A stretch of 39,655 nucleotides of DNA from positions 1-39,655 of the forward strand of contig OMYT01000030.1 in assembly GCA_900315315.1 (NCBI GenBank). The letters run 5' to 3'. A program made the position numbers and the translations under genes. The stretch's first letter is position 1. Each line of letters starts with the position of its first letter. The DNA is from an uncultured Eubacteriales bacterium (GTDB taxonomy: Bacteria; Bacillota; Clostridia; Christensenellales; Aristaeellaceae). The notes beneath the pieces were generated by a model. The model ran no database searches. It saw only the letters and a list, made by a program, of their open reading frames with translations, and was not told the origin of the DNA. Positions 6,358 to 31,700 of this stretch are shown here, piece by piece.

Positions 6358-6401
6358 ATTTTTCCCCTCCCGAATATGGATCAGATGTCTTCGCTGCATC
6401 T

Positions 6402-14010: not shown

Positions 14011-14028
14011 CCTGATCCCCGGATCAGG
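14011..14028. repeat. 18-bp palindrome over the stop codon of the last operon ORF
   Basis: CCTGATCC and GGATCAGG flank CC, and the minus-strand stop at 14024 lies within. No T-tract follows. It may be a 3'-end stem of the long operon's mRNA or mark the break point where the last ORF was truncated. Confidence 0.45.
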
Positions 14029-14230
14029 CATATTCCAGCGTCCAGGAGAGGAGCGCGGGATACTGTTTCCACAGGGCCGTAATGATCACATGGTTTTCCG
14101 TATCCCGTACGCCCCATCCGAACGGATCTCCGACGTTCCTGTACATTTTGCGCAGGTCATCTTCAGTCAGAACTTCAAAACTGTCCGGAATCTGCAGGGT
14201 AAACGTTTCGTTGATTGTCTGCCGTCCCAT
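14024..14230 (-). CDS. Small unrecognised protein, last ORF of the transporter operon
   Basis: A 68-aa soluble protein, starting MGRQTINETFTLQIPDSFEV and continuing DLRKMYRNVGDPFGWGVRDTENHVIITALW. GAGGTG lies about six bases before the ATG, and the upstream ORF ends nine bases earlier, so it is translated in the same message. The protein ends abruptly in a strand (LLSWTLEYA) and the stop lies in a palindrome, so it may be the N-terminal part of a longer protein. The family is not recognised. Confidence 0.5.
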   Translation of the reverse strand: MGRQTINETFTLQIPDSFEVLTEDDLRKMYRNVGDPFGWGVRDTENHVIITALWKQYPALLSWTLEYA

Positions 14231-14239
14231 AATAACACC

Positions 14240-14470
14240 TCAGCCCTGAGTTCCCATCATGTCATACTCCAGCTCGATCCCGTTATCCGTTTCAAAGAGC
14301 ACCCGGTACCCTTCTTCTTCATAGACGATCTGTACAAGACCGCCGGGATATACGTATTGCGCACAGGAGATGGCAGTTATCTCTTCCGGGCACCTCTTCC
14401 GGGCACCTCTTCCGGGCATGCAGGACCGGCATGCATGACATTTCAGTCCTTCTTCACCCGCAGCACCCAT
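14240..14470 (-). CDS. Small unrecognised ORF with a repeat-containing N-terminus
   Basis: The C-terminal about 48 residues (AISCAQYVYPGGLVQIVYEE, then a Gly-Ile-Glu-Leu strand) look like a small beta-strand domain. The N-terminal residues are Cys- and Arg-rich and are encoded by a 13-bp tandem repeat, so they may not be the original start. The 14470 start overlaps the end of the TlpA-like gene by 28 bp and has AGGA about eight bases upstream. The alternative ATG at 14419 has no ribosome site. It lies nine bases before the 14230 start. Function unknown. Confidence 0.4.
   Translation of the reverse strand: MGAAGEEGLKCHACRSCMPGRGARKRCPEEITAISCAQYVYPGGLVQIVYEEEGYRVLFETDNGIELEYDMMGTQG
14383..14418. 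repeat. 13-bp tandem repeat (2.8 copies)
   Basis: CTTCCGGGCACCT at 14383 and 14396, then CTTCCGGGCA at 14409. The unit is not a multiple of three, so a change in copy number would shift the frame of the ORF at 14240-14470. Confidence 0.85.
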
Positions 14471-15723
14471 TCGCCGTATTCCTGGGTGGTATACATATCA
14501 TAACTCTCATCCCAGCTGTATCCTTCCGGCACATCGATGATCTGCACGTGATATTTGTAGGGTTCGCCTTGATAGGTAATCGTTCCGGTTTCGTCGGTCT
14601 CCTGCGGTGTGCAGGCTGTGTCCGTGCAGAAATTCACCGTGACCCCCTCCACAGGGTTGTTGTCCTGGTCCACCACATGAATGATATAGGCCTGCAGGGC
14701 GTTTTCCGCCGGTGCGTCTGCGTCCGCGTATTCCCAGTGAATCCCCTCGTATCCGTCTTCCTTCAGGCTGTCAACCAGTATTTCGATGCACTCTTCATCT
14801 TTCATCATGTAGTAGATGATATCCTTTTCCGTGATCACATCCTCATTGCCGTTAAACAGCCCGACCTGGAATATCGGCAATTCGTCTTCCGGGTTGGGCA
14901 TAAACTGTTTGTAGGAATACACACCGGTTTCCGGGTTCAGCAGTTCTGTGACATGCAGGTTGCCCGCCCTGTACGTATCCGCGTACATCATCGCGGGGAC
15001 ATCGTCATCCGCGGCAACCTCCATCCGCATGATCACAGACTCATCCGGGATAATCCAGCAGGTGAAAGGCTTCTCGATGTTTTCCGCATAAATATAAACC
15101 TTTTTGTAGTCGCCTTCCGGATAAAGTGCCCGTGCCGAAGATACAGGGAACGCCTGGGTGGAATCATCCCTGGGGATGCTTTCCAGGACCGCACTCTGCG
15201 TATAGCCGTCTCCCAGGAATGTTTCCAGAACGCGTCCCACTTCCTCCGCGCTGCTGAAAGCGCTGCCATGGTAGAAAACGGCGTTGCCGAAGCGGTCCAC
15301 AATCACGGTATCGGGAATACCGTACGTGCAAATATACTGGTACAGTTCTGCGCCCTCATCCCGCCCCATCGGGAAGGAGATGCCGTTATCGCTGCGGTAT
15401 TGCGCGATATCCTCCATCGTGTCATTCTGTTCCTGACTCAGAGCGATGAAGGCAACCCTGTCACGGTATTTTTCATAGGCTCTGTTCAGATGCGGAAACT
15501 CGTTCCCGCACGGGCCGCACCATGTCGCCCAGATATTGATCAGCACCGCTTCATGGTCCTTCAGGGCTTCGGACAGGGTGAAGGTGTTCCCCTCGGTATC
15601 CGTTGCCGTAAAATCCGGGAACGGCTTTCCCAGAAAATCTGTGTCTTCCTCTTCCGCCGATGCGGCGCATGCGAGCACGCCCAGCAGCATGATTGCCATC
15701 AGGATACAGATCAGTTTTTTCAT
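14443..15723 (-). CDS. TlpA-like thioredoxin protein with a C-terminal extension
   Basis: A 426-aa exported protein with signal peptide MKKLICILMAIMLLGVLACAASA. Residues about 30-175 are a redoxin/TlpA thioredoxin domain: FPDFTATDTEGNTFTLSEAL, then WATWCGPC with the CxxC at Cys69-Cys72, and the cis-Pro loop GIPDTVIVDRFG. Such domains reduce or exchange disulfides outside the membrane. Residues about 190-340 are an unassigned domain, and about 345-426 look like an Ig-like/carboxypeptidase-regulatory-type sandwich (VVDQDNNPVEGVTVNFCTD with TDETGTITYQG). The ATG overlaps the stop of the upstream gene (ATGA), a sign of coupled translation. It is the third-last ORF of the hybrid transporter operon. 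Confidence 0.82.
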   Translation of the reverse strand: MKKLICILMAIMLLGVLACAASAEEEDTDFLGKPFPDFTATDTEGNTFTLSEALKDHEAVLINIWATWCGPCGNEFPHLNRAYEKYRDRVAFIALSQEQNDTMEDIAQYRSDNGISFPMGRDEGAELYQYICTYGIPDTVIVDRFGNAVFYHGSAFSSAEEVGRVLETFLGDGYTQSAVLESIPRDDSTQAFPVSSARALYPEGDYKKVYIYAENIEKPFTCWIIPDESVIMRMEVAADDDVPAMMYADTYRAGNLHVTELLNPETGVYSYKQFMPNPEDELPIFQVGLFNGNEDVITEKDIIYYMMKDEECIEILVDSLKEDGYEGIHWEYADADAPAENALQAYIIHVVDQDNNPVEGVTVNFCTDTACTPQETDETGTITYQGEPYKYHVQIIDVPEGYSWDESYDMYTTQEYGEWVLRVKKD

Positions 15724-16943
15724 TTTGTCACCTCCTCGATGTTTTGATCAATATTTTCAGCCGCTTTTCGTCTTCCAGAAAGCGACGCGATCACCCAACC
15801 CGTCAGCGCCAGCACAATCCCCCATCGGATCATTCCGCTCCAGAACCGGATCTCCGCCAGTTCCGGCGTCACAAACCGCAGGGGGTTGGCCGCCTCGGTC
15901 GTCAGCTCCCGGAATCTGACGGCGATCGCTTCCGGTTTCACCAGGTTTTCCGGAACCCACTCCGGAAAAGCCGTCATCATCTGACTTCCCCAGTACACCA
16001 GCACCGCCGCCGCGGCCACGCCGGCCGCCGTCAGCAGGAGCATCTGCAGCCCTCTTCCCAGGAACTTCCAGATCATCTGGCGGGGATAACAGTACCGCAT
16101 TTCCTCCTTCAGCCCGCGGATCCATTTCCCGAACCATTCCCGCAGCTTCCGGCTCCACAGCGCAAGTATCCGCAGCATCAGCAGAATCAACACAACCCGA
16201 AGCATCACGGTGCCCCGTATTTTTTCCTTCCGGGTCAGAATCGTCTGTCCCGTTCCGAAATGCCCCTTTGCCCCGTTCTCAAAGATGGAACGCAGGTTGT
16301 CCAGCCCCGTCCCGCCGACGGAAAGGGTCATGATCGTGCAGTCCGGCGCGCCTGAAGCGCCCAGCGGAATCCAGGCCTGGCCACTGCCGCGTTTCCCGAC
16401 GTAGTTCCGGGCCTCCGCCACCCCCACGACCTGAAACCTGGCAGTCCCGATCGAAACGATCTGGTCAACAGCCTCGTTTTCTCCGAACATTTTGAATGCC
16501 AGCGCGGAATCCAGCACAATGACCTGCTGACCCGCGTCGCCCCGGGCCAGAGGGCGGCCGGCGGTAAAAGCCCGGGGATAAACGCCGAAATAGTCTCCCA
16601 GGGTCTCAGTCACAGTGACCTGATCCACCGTCACAACCCCGGTCTTCAGTGAAACCCCTTCCGCCGTGCCGTGCAGGCTGTCCGCCGGAAAGGCGTTCCC
16701 CCATTCCTGCTCCGTTTCCGTCAGCTTCTGCAGCCAGGGAATGCTCTTCCGGACTGTTCCGCTGCCGGCCGGAGCTTTATCCTCCGCCCCGGGAAGAAAA
16801 ACATACTGGCCGACGTCAGGGACCCTTTCCAGCATGACCGCGCCCCAAAGGATCAGCAGCACCCCGGGCAGGATCCACAGCCATTTTTTCCATCCCGGCC
16901 TTTTTCCCCTGCGGGTTCCGGTTTCCGTCCTGATTTCGCTCAT
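15720..16943 (-). CDS. MacB periplasmic-core-type ABC permease without ATPase domain
   Basis: A 407-aa membrane protein with MacB/FtsX-like architecture: TM1 (about 19-40, WLWILPGVLLILWGAVML), a large extracytoplasmic core (about 45-245, with LGDYFGVYPRAFTAGRPLAR, VIVLDSALAFKMFGE and VGVAEARNYVG typical of the MacB core), then helices at about 248-262, 290-312 and 378-395. MacB proteins are mechanotransmitting ABC permeases whose ATPase here would have to come from elsewhere, because no ATP-binding domain is fused or nearby. The sequence between TM2 and TM3 is basic and amphipathic. Its ATG overlaps the stop of the MFP gene by four bases, and its own stop overlaps the TlpA gene. Confidence 0.7.
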   Translation of the reverse strand: MSEIRTETGTRRGKRPGWKKWLWILPGVLLILWGAVMLERVPDVGQYVFLPGAEDKAPAGSGTVRKSIPWLQKLTETEQEWGNAFPADSLHGTAEGVSLKTGVVTVDQVTVTETLGDYFGVYPRAFTAGRPLARGDAGQQVIVLDSALAFKMFGENEAVDQIVSIGTARFQVVGVAEARNYVGKRGSGQAWIPLGASGAPDCTIMTLSVGGTGLDNLRSIFENGAKGHFGTGQTILTRKEKIRGTVMLRVVLILLMLRILALWSRKLREWFGKWIRGLKEEMRYCYPRQMIWKFLGRGLQMLLLTAAGVAAAAVLVYWGSQMMTAFPEWVPENLVKPEAIAVRFRELTTEAANPLRFVTPELAEIRFWSGMIRWGIVLALTGWVIASLSGRRKAAENIDQNIEEVTK

Positions 16944-18289
16944 TTTGCCGCTGCTTCCTTCATATACTCCATGACTGCGCCGCCCTCGTTCAGCGCCCGG
17001 TCCTCCATATAAAGAATCCGCTGGTCAGTCATATTCTCATTAATGGAGACCGTGACACCCGATTCCGCCAGCACGGTGACATTAACCTTCCGGACCACCA
17101 TCTGGTTGCCGCCGAAGGTGGAGGACTTATTCTCGCCCACGTACACAAAGCGGTTGCTCCCGCTGCCCCGGACTGCCGTCGCCGGCACCAGGCAGCTGGA
17201 CGTCTTGGCCCGGGTCACCAGCCTGGTCTTCAAATCGTTCTTCATCATGGCGGACACATTGCCCAGGGCGTAGGTCACGTCATTCGTAATCTCCGCATCC
17301 GCATAGGGATGCCCGTCCGGGGTCAGCCCCGTGTCAATAATCTTCGTGGTGGGATTGTTCCCGATTTCCGCGATCACGGTCAGACTGGCGCCGGTCTCCA
17401 CTTCCTGCTTCAGGCCGGTCAGATCCACGCGGATCACCGGGTCTTTCCCCTCCGCGGTCAGCTCGGCAATCACGGTATCCCGGTTGATCAATCCTCCCTT
17501 TTCCACGTTGAAGGAGGCAAGATAGCAGTCTCTGGGAGCGGTAATCTTTTCCGTGGTTTTCATCAGAACCTGGATCTCGGTCATCTTCTTTTCCGCGGTC
17601 TCGATCTTCTTCCTGTATTCCTTCATTTGCTGAATCGGCGTCCAGGTATCATTGGGAATCGCGTAGCGTTCCAGCGCGGAAAGCGTTTCGGAAACCTGTT
17701 TCAGCGCTTTCTCCGAAATTTTCCAGGTATCGAACAGCTCCTTCGTTTCATCCTTCACGCCCTCCGGAAGTCTGCCGTCCTCCGTCAGTTCCAGGCCCTC
17801 CGCGGTCAGCGCCGCCGTCAGGTTCACCCGGGCGCCCCGCTCCACGGTCCGGGCTGCATCCACTGCCTCCCAGGCGGCCTGCCATTGCTTCTCCTGCTGG
17901 GTCAGGCGGATCTCCCCCGTCTTCTTCTCCAGCTCCCGCAGTTCCTTCCAGGCGGTATCCACCTCGGCCCGCAGCGATTCCAGGGTCTTTTCCCCGTCCG
18001 TCACCCGGGTGTTCAGCATCGTGGCGCCTTTCCTCACCCGGTCTCCCTTGGAAACCCGGACAGCGGTGACCGTCAGGGAGACGCCTTCCGGCAGATTCAG
18101 CTTCCATTCCTCCGTCTCCGGAAAAACCACTTTTCCGGTCAGTTCCGACTCCAGCTCCATCTTGCCCATCCGAACCTGCGCGAAGCGAACCTTCGGCGTG
18201 GTCATGGTCCGGATGGTGCCGGAGAAAAAGATGCACAGGGCCACCACAACGGCGACGATCAGCAAACCCTTCAGAGCGATTTTCTTCAT
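16940..18289 (-). CDS. HlyD/MacA-type membrane fusion protein (efflux adaptor)
   Basis: A 449-aa protein with one N-terminal signal anchor (LKGLLIVAVVVALCIFFSG). A lipoyl/barrel half-motif (LNLPEGVSLTVTAVRVSKGDRVRKGATML) is followed by a long helical hairpin (about 100-235), the second lipoyl half (ITAPRDCYLASFNVEKGGLINRDT), and a beta-barrel region with VPATAVRGSGSNRFVYVGEN. This is the MacA/YknX/HlyD layout; adaptors of this class join an inner-membrane pump to an exit path or the cell wall. The partner is most likely the MacB-type protein whose gene overlaps it by four bases. The ATG has AGGAG seven to eight bases upstream. Confidence 0.82.
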   Translation of the reverse strand: MKKIALKGLLIVAVVVALCIFFSGTIRTMTTPKVRFAQVRMGKMELESELTGKVVFPETEEWKLNLPEGVSLTVTAVRVSKGDRVRKGATMLNTRVTDGEKTLESLRAEVDTAWKELRELEKKTGEIRLTQQEKQWQAAWEAVDAARTVERGARVNLTAALTAEGLELTEDGRLPEGVKDETKELFDTWKISEKALKQVSETLSALERYAIPNDTWTPIQQMKEYRKKIETAEKKMTEIQVLMKTTEKITAPRDCYLASFNVEKGGLINRDTVIAELTAEGKDPVIRVDLTGLKQEVETGASLTVIAEIGNNPTTKIIDTGLTPDGHPYADAEITNDVTYALGNVSAMMKNDLKTRLVTRAKTSSCLVPATAVRGSGSNRFVYVGENKSSTFGGNQMVVRKVNVTVLAESGVTVSINENMTDQRILYMEDRALNEGGAVMEYMKEAAAK

Positions 18290-18302
18290 TTTCCCACTCC
18301 TA

Positions 18303-19163
18303 TTACTTCAGCTCCGTCAGCGTAATTCCGCTGAGGATGTCCTCCTGGAAAAAGAGATAGATAAACAGCGCGGGCAGAATATACAGCGTGGCGCCGGCAA
18401 ACTCAAACCCGGTGTTTTCTCTGGCCAGCTGATTGAACTGGATGGACAGCGGCTGCAGATCCGGCCGCGCCGCCAGATAGGTCAGCGGCTGCTCGACCAG
18501 GTTCCAGCAGTCCGCGAAGGACAGGGCCGCCGCCGCGCCCAGAATCGGCCGGCAGACGGGCAGAATAATCCGCAGGTATGTGCTGAAAGTCCCGGCGCCG
18601 TCCATCTCCGCTGCCTCGATGAGTTCATTGGGCAGTCCCACCATGAACTGGCGGATCAGGAAGATGTAAAAGGGCATGAACCACATGGGCAGAATCACCG
18701 CCCAAACGGTGTCCGTCAGCCCCAGGGACCGGAGCGTCAGCACATTCGGCACCATGGTCACCTGGAAAGGCAGGAGCATCAGCAGGATGATTCCGAAAAA
18801 GATCACGTTCTTTCCGCGGAAGCGGAACCGGCTCAGCCCGAAGGCCATGGCCGGGATAATGACCGCCTGTCCCGCCATAATCATCAGGGCATACATGGCG
18901 GAGTTGACGAAGAGCCGCAGCACAGTATTGTCCGTGATCAGAATCTGATAATACTGCTCCAGGGATACCACGTTGGGAATCAGATGCGCCTCCATCCACC
19001 GGGTTGTATCGTAGCTCCCCCGGGTCTTCAGGAAGACCTTCATCTCGTCGATGGAGCTGAAGGAATACAGGAAGGTCTGGATAATGGGCAGCAGCAGCAC
19101 CAGTGCCAGAATCATCAGCACGCCCTGCAGGATCCGCAGGCGGAAGCCGGACATTTGCTTCAC
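18303..19163 (-). CDS. MalG-like carbohydrate ABC transporter permease
   Basis: A 286-aa membrane protein with six predicted helices, a CUT1-family (MalG-type) inner-membrane subunit. The cytoplasmic coupling-loop EAA motif is clear near residues 182-200 (EAAEMDGAGTFSTYLRIILP). The N-terminal segment ILQGVLMILALVLLLPIIQT and the MWFMPFYIFLIRQFM stretch are typical. It starts with GTG at 19163, preceded by AAGGAGG with eight bases spacing. It pairs with the MalF-like protein just upstream. The substrate cannot be read from the sequence. Confidence 0.88.
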   Translation of the reverse strand: MKQMSGFRLRILQGVLMILALVLLLPIIQTFLYSFSSIDEMKVFLKTRGSYDTTRWMEAHLIPNVVSLEQYYQILITDNTVLRLFVNSAMYALMIMAGQAVIIPAMAFGLSRFRFRGKNVIFFGIILLMLLPFQVTMVPNVLTLRSLGLTDTVWAVILPMWFMPFYIFLIRQFMVGLPNELIEAAEMDGAGTFSTYLRIILPVCRPILGAAAALSFADCWNLVEQPLTYLAARPDLQPLSIQFNQLARENTGFEFAGATLYILPALFIYLFFQEDILSGITLTELK

Positions 19164-19177
19164 ACGCTTCGCCTCCT

Positions 19178-20032
19178 TTACGACAGGCCCCGCTGGGCTC
19201 TGCTCTGCAGCCAGAACAGCAGCCCGAACAGGACAAACACAATCACGGCAAAGGAATAGGCCGCCGTCGTCACGTTCTGATAATTCAGTTTGGAATACAT
19301 GTTGTTCATGTAATTCTGCAGAGTATAAATCGGCTCATCCGGATAGGCGCCGCCGATGAAGTATACTTCCTTGAAAATCCGGAAAGCGTTGACCCAGCAC
19401 AGGATGAACACCAGGAACGCGGAAGGAACAATCAGCGGCAGGGTAATCTTGAAAGCCTGCCGGGGAAAGGACGCGCCCTCCAGGGTGGCGTATTCATACA
19501 GGGATGCGGGAATCGCCTGCAGCGCCGCCAGGAAAATGACGATGCAGAAGCCCATGTTTTTCCACAGAAACAGCAGCACAACCGGAAACCGTAGAGAGGC
19601 CCCCTGAAGCCACTCGATCCGGCTTCCGCCCAGCAGCGTGATCAGATGGTTGACCGGTCCGCCGTAATCGAACCAGAGCAGCCAGATAAGCAGCACCGCG
19701 CTGGAGGGCATCAGATAGGGCAGCAGCGCCGTATTCCGGAATACCGCCCCCGCCGGGCGCATCCGGTTCACCACCACGCTGATCACGAAGGACAGGAGGA
19801 ACAGGAGCGGAGCGCAGATCAGGCTCAGCTCCAGGGTATTCTTCAGCCCCAGCTGAAACATCGGGTTCTGCCAGACGGCGGTATAGTTTCTGAAACCTAC
19901 AAAGGTGTTCTCAAAGCTGCCGTCGGTCAGGCTGTACCAGATGCCTCCGAAAAAGGGAGCCACATAAAACAGCAGCAGCCCGACCAGCCCCGGCAGCAGA
20001 AAGGGCAGCACCTGTCTTTTCTTTCTGTACAA
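19178..20032 (-). CDS. MalF-like carbohydrate ABC transporter permease
   Basis: A 284-aa CUT1-type membrane subunit with six helices and the standard N-terminus (RQVLPFLLPGLVGLLLFYVAPFFGG). The EAA loop is at about 178-198 (EYATLEGASFPRQAFKITLP). It starts with TTG at 20032, four bases after the stop of the giant fusion gene; a GGAAGGGAA site in the end of that gene precedes it. It forms the importer pore with the MalG-like protein. No ATPase gene is in the operon, so a shared MsmX/MalK-type ATPase is likely. Confidence 0.87.
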   Translation of the reverse strand: MYRKKRQVLPFLLPGLVGLLLFYVAPFFGGIWYSLTDGSFENTFVGFRNYTAVWQNPMFQLGLKNTLELSLICAPLLFLLSFVISVVVNRMRPAGAVFRNTALLPYLMPSSAVLLIWLLWFDYGGPVNHLITLLGGSRIEWLQGASLRFPVVLLFLWKNMGFCIVIFLAALQAIPASLYEYATLEGASFPRQAFKITLPLIVPSAFLVFILCWVNAFRIFKEVYFIGGAYPDEPIYTLQNYMNNMYSKLNYQNVTTAAYSFAVIVFVLFGLLFWLQSRAQRGLS

Positions 20033-20036
20033 AGTC

Positions 20037-23000
20037 TCAGTTCCCTTCCTGTCGCATCATCTGTATTTTCCGGTCGATCCAGCCCAGCAGGTCGGAAGCG
20101 GACCGGGTTCCCTCCATGAAGCCGTTCATCATCTCCATGAACTGATCCACGCTGTCAGAGGTCATGAGAATCTGGAGGAAGCTCCCTTTCGCGGCTTTCA
20201 GATAGTCGACCCTGGACTGATAGGCCGAAATGGCATCCGGGGAGATCAGCCAGCTTTGATCCTCTAAATCCGCCAGCTTTTTTTCCATCGCCTTTACCGT
20301 CTCGCTCCATTGTGCCCGGGCACCCTCGTCCTCAGCGTTTTCCTCGTTCTTCCTTGATATCTCCAGCCATTTCTCCTGGTTGGCCTTTTCCGCCTGATAG
20401 CCGGGCTTCCGGACAGCCTCCGTCACATCCCGGTACAGGGAGTGGCTGGTGAAAACATCCATCTGCTCCAGGGCGCTCTCCAGGAAGATCATGGCTTCCT
20501 GAGGGTGCTGACTGTAGGGATTGATAAAAGCAACGACGATCTGGACCGGCAGCACGGGATCCTCCCCCGCCGTCAGCGCCAGCGGCAGGGCAATATTGGG
20601 GGTCTCCCAGATGGCTGCCGGACTGCCCGCATTAAACAGGCCTGTCTTTTCGCCGCCCATTGCCTTGTTCATCTCATCGTCGGCAATCAGCGGCTCGAGT
20701 TCCTCATCCGTCAGGATCCCCAGCTTCTCATAGGGAACCCGGTTCAGCTCATCCAGCAAATTCCGCAGCAGCGGAACGTCAAAGGGTTCCTCCGGATGGA
20801 GCACGGAATACTGGTTCAGCATGTTTTTCAGTATTTCTTCCTTGAGGATTCTCCGCTCAAGGGCGAGATCAAAAAGGCGGAAATCCGTCCCCTCCAGTTT
20901 CTCCTTTTCCTCCTCCAGGCAGGCGAAAAATGCCTCCCAGGTTCCGGGCAGATCCGCCGCCGTCCGGTTCAGCTTCTTCAGGCAGGATCCGTTATAGCCG
21001 ACGGTCAGTCCATTGACGAACAGGGGCACGGCGACCAGCTTTCCGTCCTTCCTCAGGCTGTCCGATGCTAAAGCGTACATCCTGTCCGTCGCTTTGGTCA
21101 GCTTTTCACTCCCCTCCAGTTCCTTCATGAAGTTCCGGTTGTACAGGGCTCCGAAAACCGAGGAATCCGAGGCCATCACATAAACATCCACCCGGGGATC
21201 CTGATTCATCATCGCCTGCAGGACGCTGCTTTCATCCCCGGCGTTCTCCGGTGCCACCGCCAGATCGCTGTGCTCGCTGGCAAACCGGACCAGCGCCGCA
21301 TCCATGCTGTAATCTGAGGCAAATGACTGGATCCGGATGACGGTCTTCTGATTCAGGGAGGGATCGGTCGTTCGCAGGAAAACACCATCGCTGTTCCAGA
21401 CCGCCAGCCTTCCGTCCTCCAGCTGCATGCTGAAAGGCCTGGTGGAGGAAAGAACATCGGTGTTGACCGCCTCCGCCTGCTCCGGGTTCCGGTTCCTGAC
21501 GGCAAAAATCTCGCCGTTCCGGCTGTAGTAGAAAATATCGTTCTTTTCGTCATAATGGGCGCTGTCCCCCGGGTCTTCTGTTTCCGTTGTCAGGGTCAAC
21601 AGCTCTTCCGAGCTTCCCGTCTCCCGATTGTAAATGGAATAGGTATTCTTCCAACCGCCTTCCGAGCTTACCCGGCAGATCACCAGTTTGTCCTCTCCCA
21701 GCACCTCGAAGGAATACAGGTCGGCGGGCGTCTCCTCCGTGCTTTCTCCGCTCAGCAGATTGAAGCTGATCAGCTCCGACGCATTGCTGTAGTCCGTTAC
21801 CGACAGATACAGCCGGTTGCCCGCGGAGCCGCTGGCCTGGACTGTCTTATTCCTGCCGTCTCCCGTCTTCATCCGGCTCCAGTCCAGGGTCACGCTTTCC
21901 TCGTCCTCCAGATCCGCCCGGCCTCCGCTCAGCTTCAGCTTCCGTATATGTCCTCCGGAGACAGCTTTCCCCTCTTCCAGCGTGTATTCCCTGTTAACGG
22001 CGTTGTAGATCTCCCCGTTCCAGGCAAACCAGACGCCGGTGGATTCCGAAACCTGCAGGATCCGGGTTTCCCGGGTCAGTCCGGCCTTCTTCAGCTCTTC
22101 CTCCGGAATATCCTCCGCCTCCGTCTTCAAGGAAGACAGGCGTTCATTCATCTGGTCAAAGCTGTAGGTTTCCGAATCTCCGGTGTCGATATGGTGAATC
22201 GTCAGGGTTTCGCTCTCCGCCTTCCGGAAAATATAGAGGAGGTTCCCCGTCAGGATCACGTTCTGAATTCCTTTGCCGTAATTCTCGGAGGGTTCTCCTT
22301 CCAGGGCCTCATAGAAAATGAGTTCGTTTCCGCCGGTGGGGTCCCGGTGTTCGACTTTGGGTCCGTCCGTTTCGACGCTTCCCGTCATCAATTCCGCCAT
22401 CACTGATCCCAGGACAGTTTCTTCCGTTTTCAGTGCGGCATCTTCGGCTTGCGCGGCGGGCTTCTCAGCGGACTCTGCTTCCGCCGTTTCCGTCGCCTGC
22501 GGCTCAGCGGCAGGCTCCGGTTTTTCCGTTTCAATCGCCATTGTCTGATCGTCGGATTCCTGCAGCTTACTCTCAGTTTCTCGGGTCACATCCGCCGGCG
22601 CCGTCTCTTCCGGTTCAGGCTGTTGGATCTCCGCATCCGGCTCCGCCTTCTCTTCAGCTTCTTCCGCAGAATCATCCGAAAGCACTGTGATCTGAACTGT
22701 CATTCCCGACCGGATTCTTTCATCCGCTTCCAGGGAGGCGTAAGCCTTGTAGGTTTTGCGTTCCTTCGTTTCCTTGGTTTCCGTATTCTTGCTTTCCGTA
22801 GGCACATAGGAGATGGACGTAATGCTTCCGGGATAAGCTTCCCCTGCCTCCCTGGCCCAGAGCAGCTCTGTGGAGACCTGCTGTCCCTCTTTCAGCAGAA
22901 AGAGATCCGCCTCCGGAACCTCAAATTCCACCCTCAGCTCGGAGATGGGCATGATTTTCATCAGGATATCGCCCTTGGCGGCGTTTTCCCCGTCTTTCTT

Positions 23001-23804
23001 ATCCACGCTGGAAACGATCCCCTTCGCCGGGGAGAGTACCCTGCTGTCCGAAGCCTGGAGACCGTCCAGCACCCCTTCCACCGTCTCGAAAAGCAGATCG
23101 CCCCGTTCCACCTGATCCCCGTTGCTGACGTAGATTTTCAGCACGCTGCCCGTGCCCTTGACGGCCAGGGGCTTCGTCCGGTCCACCTTGCCCCGGCCGA
23201 TATTGCTTTCCTTGCTGTAATTCGGATCGCGGTAGACGGTCACTTTCTCCTCCATGCTGAGATCTCCGTCGGTAACCTCAACACTGTATCCCTTATCGCT
23301 TCCCTTATCTTTATCATCCTTACCGCTGCTGTCGCTGTCGCTGCCGTTCAGGGCGGAGACAATGCCCGTCCCATGATGGCGTCCGCCCGTAGTGCTTCTC
23401 AGATACACCTGCTCACCCAGGTGGATATATTTGTTTTCACTGGCATTGTAGGCTTTGCCGGAGGTGGCCTTCACCACGTAGCGGTTGGTGGGTTCGATAA
23501 ACAGGCTCGCCCCGTAGCGCCCCGTAACATCCTCCGCCTTATCCCCTTCCGTAATGTACAGTCCGGTGACCGTTCCTTCGATCGGAGCATAGACCGGGGT
23601 GGTGGAAATGCCGGCCAGGGTATCTCCCTCCATAACCAGGTCGCCGACCCTTACCCGGATATCCGTCACCTTTCCGCCGAAGGGCGCCTGCACAAGCAAA
23701 AGGTTTCCCGAGGTCACGGTGCCCTGATATGATGTGTCCGCAAGGGATCCCCCCACCAGGAAAACCATGATGAAGGCCAGCATCCAACAGCAAATTCGTT
23801 TCAT
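20037..23804 (-). CDS. HlyD-type adaptor fused to a propeller-like region and an ABC solute-binding protein
   Basis: A 1255-aa exported protein. A signal peptide (MKRICCWMLAFIMVFLVGGSLAD) is followed at about 24-370 by an HlyD-like adaptor: two biotinyl-lipoyl-type segments (VQAPFGGKVTDIRVRVGDLV with APIEGTVTGLYITEGD; then GSVLKIYVSNGDQVERGDLL with SPAKGIVSSVDKKDGE) and a barrel segment. An acidic Glu/Ala/Pro linker covers about 373-470. Residues about 470-815 have repeated strand pairs (NLLYIFRKAE, GVWFAWNGEIYNAV, DIFYYSRNGEIFAVR) like a beta-propeller. Residues about 817-1255 are a family-1-type solute-binding protein: VIRIQSFASDYSMDAALVRF, then DVYVMASDSSV, KLVAVPLFVNGLTVGYNGSC and PGTWEAFFACLEEEK. 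The start at 23804 has AAGGAGA eight bases upstream; a longer frame to 23891 is rejected. It is first in the operon, with MalF/MalG-like genes next. It lacks a lipobox Cys at the signal end. Confidence 0.8.
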   Translation of the reverse strand: MKRICCWMLAFIMVFLVGGSLADTSYQGTVTSGNLLLVQAPFGGKVTDIRVRVGDLVMEGDTLAGISTTPVYAPIEGTVTGLYITEGDKAEDVTGRYGASLFIEPTNRYVVKATSGKAYNASENKYIHLGEQVYLRSTTGGRHHGTGIVSALNGSDSDSSGKDDKDKGSDKGYSVEVTDGDLSMEEKVTVYRDPNYSKESNIGRGKVDRTKPLAVKGTGSVLKIYVSNGDQVERGDLLFETVEGVLDGLQASDSRVLSPAKGIVSSVDKKDGENAAKGDILMKIMPISELRVEFEVPEADLFLLKEGQQVSTELLWAREAGEAYPGSITSISYVPTESKNTETKETKERKTYKAYASLEADERIRSGMTVQITVLSDDSAEEAEEKAEPDAEIQQPEPEETAPADVTRETESKLQESDDQTMAIETEKPEPAAEPQATETAEAESAEKPAAQAEDAALKTEETVLGSVMAELMTGSVETDGPKVEHRDPTGGNELIFYEALEGEPSENYGKGIQNVILTGNLLYIFRKAESETLTIHHIDTGDSETYSFDQMNERLSSLKTEAEDIPEEELKKAGLTRETRILQVSESTGVWFAWNGEIYNAVNREYTLEEGKAVSGGHIRKLKLSGGRADLEDEESVTLDWSRMKTGDGRNKTVQASGSAGNRLYLSVTDYSNASELISFNLLSGESTEETPADLYSFEVLGEDKLVICRVSSEGGWKNTYSIYNRETGSSEELLTLTTETEDPGDSAHYDEKNDIFYYSRNGEIFAVRNRNPEQAEAVNTDVLSSTRPFSMQLEDGRLAVWNSDGVFLRTTDPSLNQKTVIRIQSFASDYSMDAALVRFASEHSDLAVAPENAGDESSVLQAMMNQDPRVDVYVMASDSSVFGALYNRNFMKELEGSEKLTKATDRMYALASDSLRKDGKLVAVPLFVNGLTVGYNGSCLKKLNRTAADLPGTWEAFFACLEEEKEKLEGTDFRLFDLALERRILKEEILKNMLNQYSVLHPEEPFDVPLLRNLLDELNRVPYEKLGILTDEELEPLIADDEMNKAMGGEKTGLFNAGSPAAIWETPNIALPLALTAGEDPVLPVQIVVAFINPYSQHPQEAMIFLESALEQMDVFTSHSLYRDVTEAVRKPGYQAEKANQEKWLEISRKNEENAEDEGARAQWSETVKAMEKKLADLEDQSWLISPDAISAYQSRVDYLKAAKGSFLQILMTSDSVDQFMEMMNGFMEGTRSASDLLGWIDRKIQMMRQEGN

Positions 23805-23942: not shown

Positions 23943-23971
23943 ATTATACACCGGATTGAACAATCAGACAA
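23943..23971 (-). promoter_or_regulatory. Sigma-A-type promoter of the hybrid transporter operon
   Basis: TTGTCT (-35), exactly 17 bp, TATAAT (-10) on the minus strand in an AT-rich island. The predicted start near 23936 gives a leader of about 130 nt before the ATG at 23804, long enough for a regulatory structure, though I see none clearly. Confidence 0.7.
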
Positions 23972-23994: not shown

Positions 23995-24768
23995 CTCTTA
24001 CAGGGTTTCATTCTCCTTCATTTGACGGTGGCGGAAGAATACTCCCTGCGCGGGTGGAAGGACGAACCTTTTTTTCTGGAGAGAGCCGGAAACCGGTATC
24101 TGCGGAAAATCACAGACCTGTATATCCAGCGGATGGAGAATGGTGTGACCTATACCGTCATTGATCCGAATGAGGATCTTTTCTACATCGGCACCGTCGA
24201 AGACCGAATCAGCGAATTCAATCAGTACGGAGATAACGCGTATGTTCCCCGCACGTTATACCATTCCAGGTATGGCTGGCTCTGTACCTCCTGTCAGCCG
24301 ATCCGGTCGGAAGGGCAGGTTTTCGGTCTCCTCTGCGAGGAAAACGCTGCAAATATGTTTGTCACCGTCTGGCTGGGGATCCTGGATCTGAAAACGGGGA
24401 TCATGCGGTGCTGCAACGCTGGCCATGAGTATCCGGCGGTCATGCGGGCCGGAGGTCAGTATGAGCTCCTGATTGATAAGCACGGCATGATGCTGGCAAT
24501 TTTCGAGGACAATGCAATGACCGGGTATGAGATCCGCCTGAACCCGGGCGACCGGTTCTTCGTCTACACGGACGGTGTGACGGAGGCGATGAATGAAAAG
24601 CAGCAGCAATATGGCACGGGCCGCATGCTGGAGGAGCTCAACAGCCTGAAGGATTCGGACCAGGAGACGGTTCTCCGGGGCGTATTAGGTGATATCCGGA
24701 ACTACGCCGGAAGCGCGGAGCAGTTTGACGATATCACCATGCTCGGCCTGACCTTTCAAGGAGAATAA
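23995..24768 (+). pseudogene. Decayed SpoIIE-type (PP2C) phosphatase with sensor remnant
   Basis: The open frame (TTG at 24022 is the only start-like codon; the frame opens after a TGA at 23992) encodes about 250 residues. The first about 110 (EEYSLRGWKDEPFFLERAGN through DLFYIGTVEDRISEF and PRTLYHSRYGWLCTS) resemble an extracytoplasmic dCache-like sensor. At about residue 107 they jump straight into the C-terminal half of a SpoIIE phosphatase domain: TVWLGILDLKTGIMRCCNAGHEYPAVM, then FFVYTDGVTEAMN and the final QFDDITMLGL. The transmembrane/HAMP segment and the N-terminal phosphatase half with its metal-binding GDFYD-type Asp are missing. There is no ribosome site or signal peptide. So it appears truncated at the 5' end and internally deleted, hence inactive. 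Confidence 0.75.
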
Positions 24769-26595: not shown

Positions 26596-28644
26596 TCAAT
26601 GATGTCCGTATTTCCTCGTGGTGCGGTGCCTGGGCTGAATCACATGGACCCAGTCGCCGTCGATCTGATAGCCGGTTACCGTTACACTTCCGTTAAAATC
26701 CACGGTATCAGCGTCGTCATGCTGGATATGATCCGTTCTCCAGCCGCTCTGACCGGTTTTCTGGCCCGGATTGAGCCTTCCGCTCCAGGTAATATTAAAC
26801 GTGTTCTTTCCGCTTTTGTTTGTGTTCAGCGGAGGATTGCCTGCCTCGCCGCCATTAAACACCGATACAACAGCCGTAATCTGTGTAATCACAAAATTCG
26901 TGTCATTCCGGACTACCATACTGAACTGTGCATCTTCATCCCATCCGATATCGCCCAGGAAGGCAACGCCGTTGTCAAAATCGCCGACCGTCACCGGAAT
27001 GGTAGCCTGGAAGCCGCCGTCTTCGGTGGTTGCAGTCACAACCGCGTCTCCGTAGTTCACACCGGTCAGACTCACATGCATATCCTTCTCCGGGGCAACG
27101 ATCACGATACCCGGATCCGAAGTTTCCCAGCTAATGTTCTTGTTCAGCGCGTCCTTCGGTTCGATGATCGCCTTGGTTTTAACCGTCTGGCCCGGATCGA
27201 TATACGCATGTCTGCGGTACATCCGCACGCTTTCGACATGCTTGCCGACATGAACATTGATCGTGCCCTTCCGTTTGGATCCGTCTGTGCTTGTGGCGCT
27301 TACGGTGGTCTTTCCGGCTTTCACGCCGGTGACAATTCCTTCAGCGTCCACCGTCGCGATGGCGGTTTTGGCGGACTTGAACTCAAGGGTCTTGTTCGTG
27401 GCATTGTCCGGTTCAACCGTCCATTCCAGCTGGGTCGTCTCGTTAACATAGACCAGCGCGGTCTTGCTGTTGAAGGAAATCCTGGTCACAGGCTGGACAA
27501 TATGAACCGTCGCCGTGGCGGAAACGCTGTCCAGCGCCTCGCTTGTGCAGGTGACCGTGCAGTCGCCGATCGCGATCCCCTTGATCTGTCCAGTCTTGTT
27601 CACCGTGGCGATCGATTCGTCCGATGAGGTCCAGATCACCTTTTTGTTGTCGGCGTCCTTCGGCAGAACCGTTGCTTTCAGATTGCCGGTGCGCCCGACG
27701 GCCACCGTAATCTCCTCCGAACCCAGCGCAATGCTTTCCGGATTCTGCACAACTTTCACGCTGCTGTTGGCGCGGACATTGCTTCCGTCCGCGGACGTCG
27801 CGATCACACGGCCGTTCCCGTGCTTCACGCCCGTGACCGTTCCGTTCCCGTCGACCGTAACGAATTTCCCGTCCCCGGACCATTCCACGCTCTTAATCGT
27901 GGCATTTTCCGGCTCCACCTTCGCGGTGACGGTGATCTGCCCGCCGACGGTAACCGCAGGCTCGGACATCTCGATCGTCACCTTGGTCACCGGCTGCACC
28001 ACCAGCACCCGGAAACGGGTATTCACTTCAGGGTTCGACTCACTGGCAACCGTCAGGATGGCTTCCCCGGCTGCGACACCGGTTACCGCATTCTTCGCCA
28101 CAGTAAACACGCTGTCATCGTTCCCGGTAAACGTCACGTTCCGGTTGCTGGCGTCCTTCGGCTCCACAGCTGCCAGAAGCTGGTATTTCTTTTTGACCGG
28201 CAGGAGCAGCACGGGCAGCTCGTTCTCCTCGGCATTCTCCCGGACTGACAGATATGGCGCGATCTTCTCGTCAGTGGGGGCGTAAACCGGAAGCTTGTCC
28301 GTGTTCACCGTCACCGACGTGACCGGTTTCAGAACCGTCACTTTGATCTGGGCCTTGTAGCTCTTATTGTCGGCCCTGACCGTTGCCGTAATGACGGCAC
28401 GGCCCTTTTTCACCGCGGTGACAAGGCCGTTCCCATCCACCGTGGCCACTTTCTGGTCCGAGGAGGTGTAGGTCAGTTCCCCGCCTTCCGCCGCGCCCTC
28501 CCGGGCCAGCACGGTCTGCAGAGTTTCGCCTTCGCTGATCGCGGCTTCCGAAGCGTCAAACGCGATCCCGTCCCCGGCTGCCATTGCGGTAAAGGTTACG
28601 CAAACCAATGCCGCGATGGTCAGAAGAATAATCAGTTTCTTCAT
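26596..28644 (-). CDS. Secreted protein with six Big_2 Ig-like domains
   Basis: A 682-aa exported protein with signal peptide MKKLIILLTIAALVCVTFTAMAA. Six Big_2 (bacterial Ig-like) domains of about 80-90 residues cover about 25-575, each with the pattern VxPxDAxNKxVxWxSSDxxIATVxxxGxVTGVxxGxxxVTAT. A C-terminal domain of about 105 residues (MVVRNDTNFVITQITAVVSVFNG) resembles FxLYD-type folds; the end is His/Arg rich. Big_2 proteins are usually surface adhesins or stalks, but no LPxTG or SLH anchor is seen. The first gene of the operon with the SH3b and 12049-family genes; the gap to the next start is 29 bp. Confidence 0.85.
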   Translation of the reverse strand: MKKLIILLTIAALVCVTFTAMAAGDGIAFDASEAAISEGETLQTVLAREGAAEGGELTYTSSDQKVATVDGNGLVTAVKKGRAVITATVRADNKSYKAQIKVTVLKPVTSVTVNTDKLPVYAPTDEKIAPYLSVRENAEENELPVLLLPVKKKYQLLAAVEPKDASNRNVTFTGNDDSVFTVAKNAVTGVAAGEAILTVASESNPEVNTRFRVLVVQPVTKVTIEMSEPAVTVGGQITVTAKVEPENATIKSVEWSGDGKFVTVDGNGTVTGVKHGNGRVIATSADGSNVRANSSVKVVQNPESIALGSEEITVAVGRTGNLKATVLPKDADNKKVIWTSSDESIATVNKTGQIKGIAIGDCTVTCTSEALDSVSATATVHIVQPVTRISFNSKTALVYVNETTQLEWTVEPDNATNKTLEFKSAKTAIATVDAEGIVTGVKAGKTTVSATSTDGSKRKGTINVHVGKHVESVRMYRRHAYIDPGQTVKTKAIIEPKDALNKNISWETSDPGIVIVAPEKDMHVSLTGVNYGDAVVTATTEDGGFQATIPVTVGDFDNGVAFLGDIGWDEDAQFSMVVRNDTNFVITQITAVVSVFNGGEAGNPPLNTNKSGKNTFNITWSGRLNPGQKTGQSGWRTDHIQHDDADTVDFNGSVTVTGYQIDGDWVHVIQPRHRTTRKYGHH

Positions 28645-28720: not shown

Positions 28721-31700
28721 TTATACCTCTTCTTTGCGGATCAATCCCTCCAGGATCTTCACATACAGGTCATGGAACCGTTCTATCCGTTCCTTGTCAA
28801 ACAGCCCTTCGGCGTATTCCATCTCGGAGTCAAAGCCGTTGTCGCCGTATTCGTTCTCCAGCAGTTCCATCTCCAGCCGGGCGCCGGCGGCGCTGAACTC
28901 ATCGGCCAGCTCCAGCATCTCATGCGGCAGCTCGTCCAGTTCGTCCGCGTTGATGCCCAGCTGCAGGTTCACCTCCATGCAGTCGTTCAGATAAGGCTCC
29001 CTGGTTTCCGTCATGAAGTCCCATCCGCAGTGGGCAATGCCTTCCGCTACCTGTTCCTTGACGGAAAGCAGCAGATCCCGTACGGAGGAGTACTCTTCCA
29101 TCCTGGCCGCAGCCGGAATATTCCGGATCAGCATACCCACGACGTTCTCCGTTTCCGGGGACAGGCGGTTGTTGTAAATCCAGTTGATCATCACATGCTT
29201 TTTGCCCGTAAACCGGGAAAGTGCCAGCAGGCCCGCGCTGATCGCCATCACGGAATGGGAAACGCCCCAGTATTGCTCCGCTTCCTTTACCTGCGCGGCA
29301 TCGAAACCAAGCCGGATCATTCTTCCCGCCTGGTTGATGTTTGTGCTCTCATGATCCGGTTCCGGAATATTGCACCAGTCATCGTCGCCGTAATTCTCCC
29401 TGAAATACGCGCGGTCTTTCTCCAGCGTTCCGTCCCTGACGAGCTCCTCATTCTTTTCCAGCATCGCGAAGTAATAATCCTTCTTCATCTCCCGGCCGAA
29501 GTAGGCGTTCATGATATCGCCCATGAGCACGCCCAGGGATCCGCCGTCCATCAGCAGGTGATGTACGTCGAAGAACAGATAGCAGCCTTTGCGCCCGCGG
29601 AAGACGTTGACCTTGCACAGGCAGGCGTTCAGAATCCGCTGGAAGGGCACCAGCAGGATATCGCCCAGCGCGTCCTCGGTTTCCGGCCGGATATCGCGCA
29701 CTTTTACCTTCGGCAGCAGCTCCGGAACATACTTCTGCTTCAGGTCATTGTTATCATCGAAGAAGAATGCTACGGAAAGGCCCGGATGGTTTTCCAGCGC
29801 CCTGTTCACCGCGTCGCAGAGCCTGTCCGCATCCACTTCCTTGCCGAAATGCACCAGAATATGCATATTGCTCCACATGGTGGATCCCGGCCGGAACAGC
29901 TGGTTATCGATCATCTGCAGCTGCAGGGGCGACGGATCATAGGCTTTCAGGCGCGCCCTGGCTTCCAGCTCGTCCAGGCTTTCGGACATGCTCCGTTTCT
30001 CCAGTGCCTTCGCAATGGCCCCGGGCGTGCGCAGCTGGAATACATCCGACGCGTTCATGCTGTCGAGCTTCGCTTCCGAAAGCACCACCATTGCCTTGAG
30101 CGAATCGCCGCCCAGGTCAAAGAAGTCGTCCAGCAGGCCGACCTTGCCCTCTTCCAGCTTCAGCGTCCGTGCGAAAGCGTCGCAGAGGATCCGTTCCGTT
30201 TCCGTTTCCGGCGGAACATATTCCGCCTTCAGATCCTGGAGATCCGGTTCCGGCAGGGCTTTCCGGTTGACTTTGCCGTTGCTGGTCATCGGCATTTCTT
30301 CCAGCTGCATCAGCACGTTCGGAACCATGTATTCCGGAAGCTTCTCCTGCATGAATTCCTTCAGTTTCTCCGCGGGAATTTCTTCCTTCGCGGTATAGTA
30401 GCCGGCCAGGTATTCCGTTCCGCCGGTCTTCCGCACTGTTGCCGCGCTGCTGGAAACATCCGGGTACTCCGTCATGACCTTCTCGATCTCGTCCAGTTCA
30501 ATCCGGAAGCCTCTCAGCTTGATCTGGTTATCCAGGCGGCCGAAGATGCGGACTTCGCCTTCCTCCGTCCAGGCCGCCAGGTCTCCGCTGTGATAAGCCC
30601 GCAGGCCGTCATGCTCAAAGAAGGCCGCCGCAGTCTTGTCCGGCAGGTTCACATATCCGCGGCCCACCTGGTCCCCGCAGATAATCAGCTCGCCCCGCAG
30701 GCCGACCGGCAGTTCGTTCCCGAACAGGTCCGCCACATAGAAGACGGTATTCGCGATGGGAGGCCCGACGGTCACGTGCTCCTCGCCTGTCATCAGAGCC
30801 GCGGAGCAGCCCATGGTACATTCGGTCGGCCCGTATACGTTCAGGATCACGCTGTCTTCCCGAAGTTCCCGCAGCCGGTCGTACAGCTGCCGGGGGAAGG
30901 CTTCCGCGCCGATATCGAAGAAGGTGAACTGCCGGATCGCCTCCCGGCTCGCCGGAATCTCCAGCAGGCTCAGCAGGTAGGTCGGCGTACAGGTAATCCC
31001 GTTGGCCCCGCTTTCCGTCACCAGACGCGCGAACAGGGCCGGATCATGGACTTCAGCCTCCGTGGCAATCACCACGGTGTTTCCGTTGCAAAGCGGCACA
31101 AACTCCTCCACGACCGATACGTCAAAGGAGAAGGCAGCCAGGGCCAGGTTGACCCGTCCCGGCGCCGCGTAATGCATGATCTCAATGGATTTTTCATTCC
31201 GGTGTACGTAGTTGGCGATGTTCCGGTGTTCGATCATGACGCCCTTGGGCCGGCCCGTGGATCCGGAAGTATAAATGCAGTAAGCCAGGTCATCAGGCCC
31301 TGCAGCCTTTCCTTCTGCATTCTGCATTCCGCATTCTGCATTCGCCCTGACGCTGCCCAGATCGTCCGCCCCGAACGCCTCCTCCAGCGTCAGGATGCGG
31401 TACTCCCTGTCCTGCAGCTGCCTGCCGGCGATCTGCTCCTTCGTCGTCAGCAGCAGCTTGCTCCCGCCGTCCTGCATGCAGAAGTCGATCCGGTCGTCCG
31501 GATATTCCGTGATAAAGGGCACAAAGGCCGCGCCGCTCTTCAGGACCGCGATTTCCGCCACATAAGCCCAGATCTCCCGGTCAAACAGCACGCCGATGAG
31601 CTGATCCCTTCCGGCGCCGTGCTGCGTCAGCACTTTCGCCAGCTGATCGCTCAGCAGGTCCAGTTCCCGGAAGCTCAGCTGTTTCCCGGCCGTGATGACC

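Follow-up and report, generated by a model that had tools for sequence, protein, structure and literature searches.

The window analysed here, a 39,655-nucleotide contig from an uncultured Eubacteriales bacterium, carries on its minus strand (14024..23804) an operon of eight open reading frames (ORFs) in which parts of a sugar-type ATP-binding cassette (ABC) importer stand beside parts resembling MacA/MacB exporters. The operon opens with FUS, a protein joining a HlyD-type adaptor to a solute-binding protein (SBP), and continues with two permeases (MalF and MalG), an adaptor (HLYD) and a MacB-core membrane protein (MACB). With high confidence, importer and adaptor parts belong to a single system, and its direction is probably import. 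Judging from sequences and structure models, a somewhat favored form of this system is one machine, in which a CUT1-like type I ABC importer would carry an outer superstructure derived from MacA and MacB. The degrees of confidence given for the single system, for import, for the role of MACB and for the substrate are judgements rather than results. A preliminary description of this DNA had already proposed a single machine. The linkage of importer and adaptor parts across bacterial families supports that proposal, but the powering by MacB that it implied, the inclusion of a TlpA-like protein and two small ORFs, and the fusion as a conserved part are not supported.

The center of the module is the permease pair. 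MalF and MalG had been recognized from the letters alone, and both contain BPD_transp_1 with EAA loops, as the two permeases of a CUT1 importer do. The EAA-loop residues E180, A182, G186 and A187 of MalF are invariant in all 17 aligned sequences. When the MalF profile is compared with solved structures, the best matches are AlgM1, an ABC sugar transporter permease and MalF; AlgM1, the first of them, is part of an importer for the polymer alginate. Among members of the window's family, mean pairwise identity is 61.4% for MalF (38 rows) and 61.9% for MalG (39), with 52.0% (20) for FUSn, the separate HlyD gene that corresponds to the adaptor half of FUS; it is 34.5% for HLYD (41), 29.0% for MACB (41) and 26.4% for the propeller-SBP (30). 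A constant permease beneath fast-changing outer parts fits a fixed substrate type or motor combined with a varied surface.

FUS supplies the receptor. Its two halves follow one another as the preliminary description had placed them: HlyD_3 scores above its cut-off in the first, and the second is identified as an SBP by family matches and fold. In the window protein itself SBP_bac_8 is weak (23.2 bits against a cut-off of 27), while the match reaches E<=0.01 in 25 of 33 family members, making this the sugar-type extracytoplasmic SBP of a CUT1 importer. The AlphaFold2 model (predicted local distance difference test score, pLDDT, 88.9) leads Foldseek to maltose-type and other sugar-binding proteins of solved structure. 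Between the halves lies a beta-propeller-like domain, an addition to the domains named earlier; one relative lends it a PQQ_2 match that is weak and below cut-off. The fusion exists in the window genome but is not conserved, since none of the 90 other family loci joins FUSn and SBP in a single ORF; it is thus peculiar to this genome within the sample. In the three relatives that were inspected, the FUSn and SBP genes are adjacent, and the SBP opens with its own signal-peptide-like segment. FUS appears to merge two neighboring genes of its relatives, adaptor and SBP, into one protein. At 16 of the 90 family loci (L043, L045, L054 and others), two or three propeller-SBP matches stand in tandem upstream of one MalFG-HLYD-MACB set.

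Within the window's own family the gene set is tightly kept. A MACB search at E<=0.001 is positive in 95 of the 200 family genomes sampled, and 40 regions (<=20 kb) were fetched from such matches. Another 74 loci come from scanning named genome contigs with the HLYD alignment through one peptide pattern. The hosts of these 74 are uncultured Clostridia, Clostridiales or Eubacteriales, Christensenella/Christensenellaceae, and Candidatus genera such as Pullichristensenella (placed by NCBI in the class Clostridia); going by source names, many come from ruminant gut compartments. Removal of repeated HLYD tails and of loci without a callable HLYD reduces the 114 loci to 90. MalF-MalG are the next detected module genes upstream of HLYD in 80/80 testable family loci, and MACB is the next one downstream in 85/85, so the co-occurrence of MalFG, adaptor and MacB core, which the preliminary description had put forward for checking, is conserved. 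Of 74 loci testable for a propeller-SBP, 71 have one upstream (the misses are L053, L143 and L103, the last with its SBP downstream), and FUSn is found in 28 of 33. Within the core order, the median distance between a stop and the start of the following domain is 13 to 75 bp. Because this sample was found via MACB or HLYD, it is not independent evidence on its own.

An independent test comes from MalF. An alignment of 17 rows, three of them from the sister family f23, was run over 398 genomes of the phylum. The window genome scores 486 bits, seven other genomes (eight places) 314-349 bits, one genome 241 bits, and the remainder <=205 bits. Those eight places, with 15 more from three of their families, make up 23 distant loci in families f36, f44, f47, f67 and f115. 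Although these loci were chosen via MalF alone, HLYD is present in 22/22 that are testable and MACB in 21/21 (weakly in L257), and an SBP or propeller-SBP gene is found at 21 of the 23. The usual order is MalF-MalG-HLYD-MACB-ATPase. It is altered in L257, which reads SBP-HLYD-MACB-MalF-MalG, and in L255, where the SBP follows MACB; these rearranged loci hold the same gene content, which argues for a functional unit. As judged by gene content, the conserved set is a propeller-SBP (or SBP), MalF, MalG, HLYD and MACB, often with the further HlyD FUSn in the window's family. Adaptor and MacB genes that varied independently of MalFG had been named at the outset as what would speak against a single system; the genes do not separate, except at one f163 locus and at some loci of f23.

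The probable motor of this module is an importer-type ATPase. A UgpC/MalK-like gene is found at 16 of the 23 distant loci, and at 14 of them it overlaps MACB or lies within 280 bp of it; at L261 it comes after the SBP gene, and at L266 it is divergent and 6.8 kb away. It was not detected at L255, L257, L271, L272 and L273, and L262 and L267 are cut off. The module ATPases of L250 and L251 carry the Pfam domains ABC_tran, OB_MalK and TOBE_2, and the two scanned against the NCBIfam UgpC model pass its cut-off of 432 (L251, 466 bits; L256, 504 bits). In the window operon no ATPase is encoded, as first noted, and none of the 111 PF00005 matches in the genome lies on the window contig, C107. In the 90 family loci, a motif screen flagged candidate ABC ORFs of undefined class within 3 kb at L033, L069 and, via a widened span, L049. 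The window genome does contain an orphan UgpC, L198 (G000:C168), scoring 507 bits. No MalFG was detected in the 19-kb region around it, nor in 18 kb around its counterparts in four genus-mates (L230-L233). In this assembly, which is 89% complete, 19 MalG-like matches at E<=1e-6 (some of which may be MalF) outnumber three OB_MalK matches, one of them under cut-off. These permeases and the orphan ATPase might reflect MsmX-type sharing. Multitask ATPases are known in Firmicutes: B. subtilis MsmX and S. pneumoniae MsmK energize several importers that have no ATPase of their own (PMC7658222). We infer that in the window genome the operon is served by L198 as a shared, orphan UgpC/MsmX-like ATPase, which agrees with the earlier suggestion of an ATPase from elsewhere. 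A dedicated ATPase that has been relocated was considered as well; it is not supported by a tree of 29 ATPases described below.

This motor also bears on direction. Among solved structures, HLYD and MACB come closest to parts of exporters, and the system might accordingly work outward, for export or presentation, with MalFG as the exit path and HLYD/MACB as an outer duct. However, SBPs serve import, and an SBP or propeller-SBP accompanies MalFG in 71/74 family and 21/23 distant loci; the ATPase, too, is of importer type. Outward transport is for these reasons very improbable.

HLYD and MACB were described from the start as a HlyD/MacA-type adaptor and a MacB-core protein, and the matches fit this, though for HLYD weakly: HLYD gives HlyD_3 and RND_mfp matches that are both weak and under their cut-offs, together with weak MacA profile matches, and MACB gives MacB_PCD. 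The MACB model has a pLDDT of 91.1, and Foldseek and the PDB profile search both lead from MACB to MacB and YknZ. All 36 aligned MACB members contain MacB_PCD, while FtsX (PF02687) is detected at E<=0.01 in none of them (0/36). Six further module MACBs with MacB_PCD above cut-off (L206, L250, L251, L253, L254 and L256, from f23, f47, f67 and f115) likewise give 0/6 for FtsX; in the candidates of L209 and L257 neither MacB_PCD nor FtsX is above cut-off. A pattern for the ATPase-coupling loop of MacB/FtsX permeases matches 0 of 58 module MACB proteins, and the controls L237 and L211 have both this motif (2/2) and FtsX (2/2). Outside the core, MACB has a conserved FPEWVPE segment followed by a helix, between its last two membrane helices. 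It is rather likely that MACB is a scaffold, no longer coupled to an ATPase. Powering of MACB by some MacB-type ATPase, which the preliminary description had implied, was dropped: the FtsX domain and coupling motif are absent, and relatives carry a UgpC/MalK-like ATPase. Two observations concern neighbors of such proteins. At the control locus L237 (5961-9658), a UgpC-type ATPase that is the counterpart, in genome G025, of the orphan is directly preceded by a HlyD-like gene and by a MacB permease of the canonical type with FtsX. At L061 (10590-20000), a 3137-amino-acid open frame with a signal-like start directly follows MACB and reaches the end of the fetched stretch.

These findings bear on the explanation that two machines share one operon through niche co-regulation, a CUT1 importer and a separate MacAB-like exporter that borrows a MacB/LolD-type ATPase from elsewhere. 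Profiles and folds do liken HLYD to MacA/EmrA and MACB to MacB, and with 111 PF00005 matches in the genome other ATPases are available. Nevertheless, MACB lacks what would couple it to such a motor (0/36 for FtsX and 0/58 for the motif, with both controls positive), in the window no MacB/LolD-type ATPase is part of MACB or adjacent to it, the window contig has no ABC ATPase match, the operons of relatives repeatedly include an ATPase of UgpC/MalK-like type, and HLYD, MACB and MalFG are linked in about 100 loci. We regard two machines as unlikely.

Several points weigh against a single import machine. Its direction, its assembly into a complex and its substrate are all things that we infer. The module is patchy, with matches at E<=1e-70 in 3/45 genomes of f47, 3/10 of f115 and 11/20 of f67, and the genus-mate G112 has no MACB or HLYD match. 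The MACB match of L257 is weak (21 bits; Pfam 20.5, under the cut-off of 27), and the HLYD frame of L264 is split over two ORFs. In f23, whose loci were found via HLYD, L206 has all four core genes and L208 ends at a contig edge, but the MACB match of L209 is weak (35 bits), L207 has MalFG-HLYD with MACB not detected, and in L210 MACB is not detected and the place after HLYD is taken by an ORF that has ABC-ATPase motifs. At the f163 locus L258 (MalF 241 bits), MalF and MalG are fused and accompanied by an SBP, and neither HLYD nor MACB was detected. As for the motor, three module ATPases (L250, L251 and L256) were scanned against family libraries, and the rest are assigned by similarity. In the tree of 29 ATPases, where L238 is labelled an orphan though weaker MalF/MalG-like matches lie in its region, the module ATPases form no single clade apart from other UgpC proteins and need three changes; a dedicated motor for the module is therefore not supported.

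Some of these exceptional loci have features of their own. The ORF of L210 was considered as a MacB with its own ATPase and dropped, as its start looks unlike MacB. In L258 (7969-10981), the SBP lipoprotein and the single-ORF MalF-MalG fusion come after a two-component system, and the next gene encodes DUF2254. Small secreted-looking proteins with a C-x-HG-like stretch near the end are found beside or inside the f23 module in L208 (6097-6411) and L210 (930-1262).

Hints at the substrate come from neighboring genes. In f47 and f115, two-component genes lie near the module in 8/8 loci examined. In five of the eight (L251, L252, L254, L259 and L262) they are VanR/VanS-type by similarity; the kinase of L261 is VanS-like, and two-component genes of other kinds are found in L253 and L260. 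On NCBIfam models, VanR reaches 427 bits in L251 and 422 in L254 (cut-off 350), and VanS 410 and 406 (cut-off 400). Between the two-component genes and MalF, a D-Ala-D-Ala carboxypeptidase-like gene is found in L251, L252, L259 and L262, that of L251 having Peptidase_S11 (Pfam). The Van-type neighbors and the likeness to AlgM1 do no more than suggest a link to envelope stress, to wall material or to some large oligomer. An oligomer that is large or comes from the envelope, weakly supported as it is, is more likely than a simple sugar, and a substrate that truly derives from the envelope is somewhat doubtful. The wall-derived substrate first proposed is thus still a guess, with circumstantial Van and D,D-carboxypeptidase-like neighbors in two distant families. 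In the window's family neither the Van-type link nor any other conserved regulator linked to the module was seen, a weak test because neighbor clusters are contaminated with module genes. At L254 (10566-17865, f47), VanRS-type genes, a VanI-type D-Ala-D-Lac ligase and VanX stand directly upstream of the module; the vanI paper (PMC4229326) contains none of six transporter terms.

The same neighbors bear on another explanation, that of a sensor or mechanotransmission device with little net transport, in which propeller-SBP and HLYD/MACB would relay occupancy or wall state via MalFG and the ATPase to a regulator. The two-component genes at 8/8 loci, VanR/VanS-like in five and with a VanS-like kinase in a sixth, would suit such a device. 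FtsX-related proteins without a transport role exist. On the other side, the window's own family shows no linked regulator (the weak test just mentioned), and conservation is highest in MalFG, whose EAA loops are retained, which is what real transport would lead one to expect. A sensor thus seems distinctly improbable.

Returning to the single import machine, a working scheme can be proposed. The receptor of FUS would capture the substrate outside the membrane. HLYD would sit on the MACB core as MacA does on MacB, and the two could build a conduit or scaffold that crosses the zone of the wall, placing the receptor over MalFG. MalFG would then import the substrate, driven in the window genome by the shared orphan UgpC/MsmX-like ATPase. 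We tentatively entertain a novel class of envelope-spanning importer, in which an uncoupled duct or scaffold derived from MacA/MacB would take over a large substrate, perhaps one from the wall, from a surface receptor and pass it to MalFG-UgpC: an exporter architecture turned to uptake.

Compared with known systems, the module shares with CUT1 importers (UgpAEBC, MalFGK2, MsmX-dependent) the SBP, two BPD_transp_1 permeases with EAA loops, and a UgpC/MalK-type ATPase that can come from elsewhere. Unlike them, it regularly includes a MacB-core membrane protein together with one or two HlyD adaptors, and its SBP often has a beta-propeller and in the window genome is fused to a HlyD adaptor. With MacAB-TolC and MacAB it shares a HlyD/MacA-like adaptor beside a MacB-core protein that has a single membrane helix at the N-terminus and several at the C-terminus; it differs in having, in the window, no ATPase domain or adjacent LolD-type partner and no FtsX or coupling motif, in the FPEWVPE segment of the C-terminal part of MACB, and in its tie to an importer. 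YknWXYZ-type exporters of Gram-positives combine an adaptor with a MacB-like permease, YknZ being part of an ATPase-driven exporter. The extracellular domain of YknZ is a profile and fold match for MACB, whereas the module has an importer core and a UgpC-type motor. None of the first five operon proteins reaches a curated NCBIfam cut-off, and a PADLOC search with six operon proteins found nothing at E<=0.01. In the open-access literature searched, with subscription papers mostly and preprints wholly outside it, no published description of the combination was found, which suggests that the combination is apparently undescribed there, though every part is from a known family.

The layout of the operon is given in Table 1. 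Its eight minus-strand ORFs lie where they had been placed, and the packing is as tight as claimed: 4 bp separate FUS from MalF, 14 bp MalF from MalG and 13 bp MalG from HLYD, and HLYD and MACB overlap by 4 bp. Toward the 3' end, MACB and TlpA overlap by 4 bp, TlpA and the 76-amino-acid ORF by 28 bp, and 9 bp separate the 76- and 68-amino-acid ORFs. TlpA is probably co-transcribed with the operon, and the small ORFs, which overlap or abut its end, may be. These three genes had been counted as parts of one system, a role rejected here: they have no match in the 40 related regions (<=20 kb, some short), and they appear to be local additions outside the conserved module. A ribosome-binding-like GGAAGGAGA lies upstream of the ATG at 23804. 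The promoter announced at 23943 is the best of six sites in the stretch, agreeing with the consensus at 10/12 positions, but shuffles of the stretch give 5.7 sites (sd 2.3); since six is at chance level, the promoter is plausible and no more.

Table 1. Features of the module operon and its surroundings in the window.
Feature	Position	Strand	Evidence
FUS, secreted 1255-amino-acid fusion: signal peptide, HlyD/RND_mfp adaptor, acidic linker, beta-propeller-like domain, SBP	20037..23804	-	domain scans, model, Foldseek
FUS, HlyD/RND_mfp-like part, residues ~25-400	22605..23732	-	HlyD_3 9.9e-18 (above cut-off), RND_mfp 3.3e-17 (below its cut-off)
FUS, beta-propeller-like part, residues ~512-812	21369..22271	-	strand-rich in AlphaFold2 model
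FUS, solute-binding-protein part, residues ~821-1255	20040..21344	-	SBP_bac_8 in family, Foldseek
MalF/UgpA-like permease, EAA loop retained	19178..20032	-	BPD_transp_1 3.1e-15; EAA residues
MalG/UgpE-like permease, EAA loop retained	18303..19163	-	BPD_transp_1 1.4e-12; conservation
HLYD, membrane-anchored HlyD/MacA-like adaptor	16940..18289	-	RND_mfp 7.4e-7 (below cut-off), PDB profile matches EmrA, MacA
MACB, MacB periplasmic-core membrane protein without FtsX domain	15720..16943	-	MacB_PCD 1.9e-10; model; Foldseek
TlpA/ResA-like thioredoxin, C-terminal Ig-like part	14443..15723	-	AhpC-TSA 1.1e-17
76-amino-acid ORF, without convincing family match	14240..14470	-	Pfam/NCBIfam scan
68-amino-acid ORF, without family match	14024..14230	-	Pfam/NCBIfam scan
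Promoter-like site TTGTCT-17-TATAAT	23943..23971	-	consensus match, 10/12 positions

Other genes surround the operon in the window. A SpoIIE-type phosphatase gene (24022-24768, plus strand) is divergent from it. On the minus strand are genes for a Sel1-repeat protein (5080-6399), a secreted-looking protein with five Big_2 stretches (26596-28644), and a 2030-amino-acid protein resembling nonribosomal peptide synthetases (28721-34813), with two AMP-binding, two PP-binding and two condensation stretches; a MatE transporter (34817-36181) adjoins the last.

A gene set that joins importer and MacAB parts thus spans several Bacillota families, although the two are usually treated as separate worlds. 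This means that a trans-wall adaptor can belong to an importer, or else that MacB-core proteins serve a second purpose without a motor. For annotation, many "carbohydrate permeases" and "efflux adaptors" of gut Clostridia are probably one system. The module offers a testable handle on what gut anaerobes take up.

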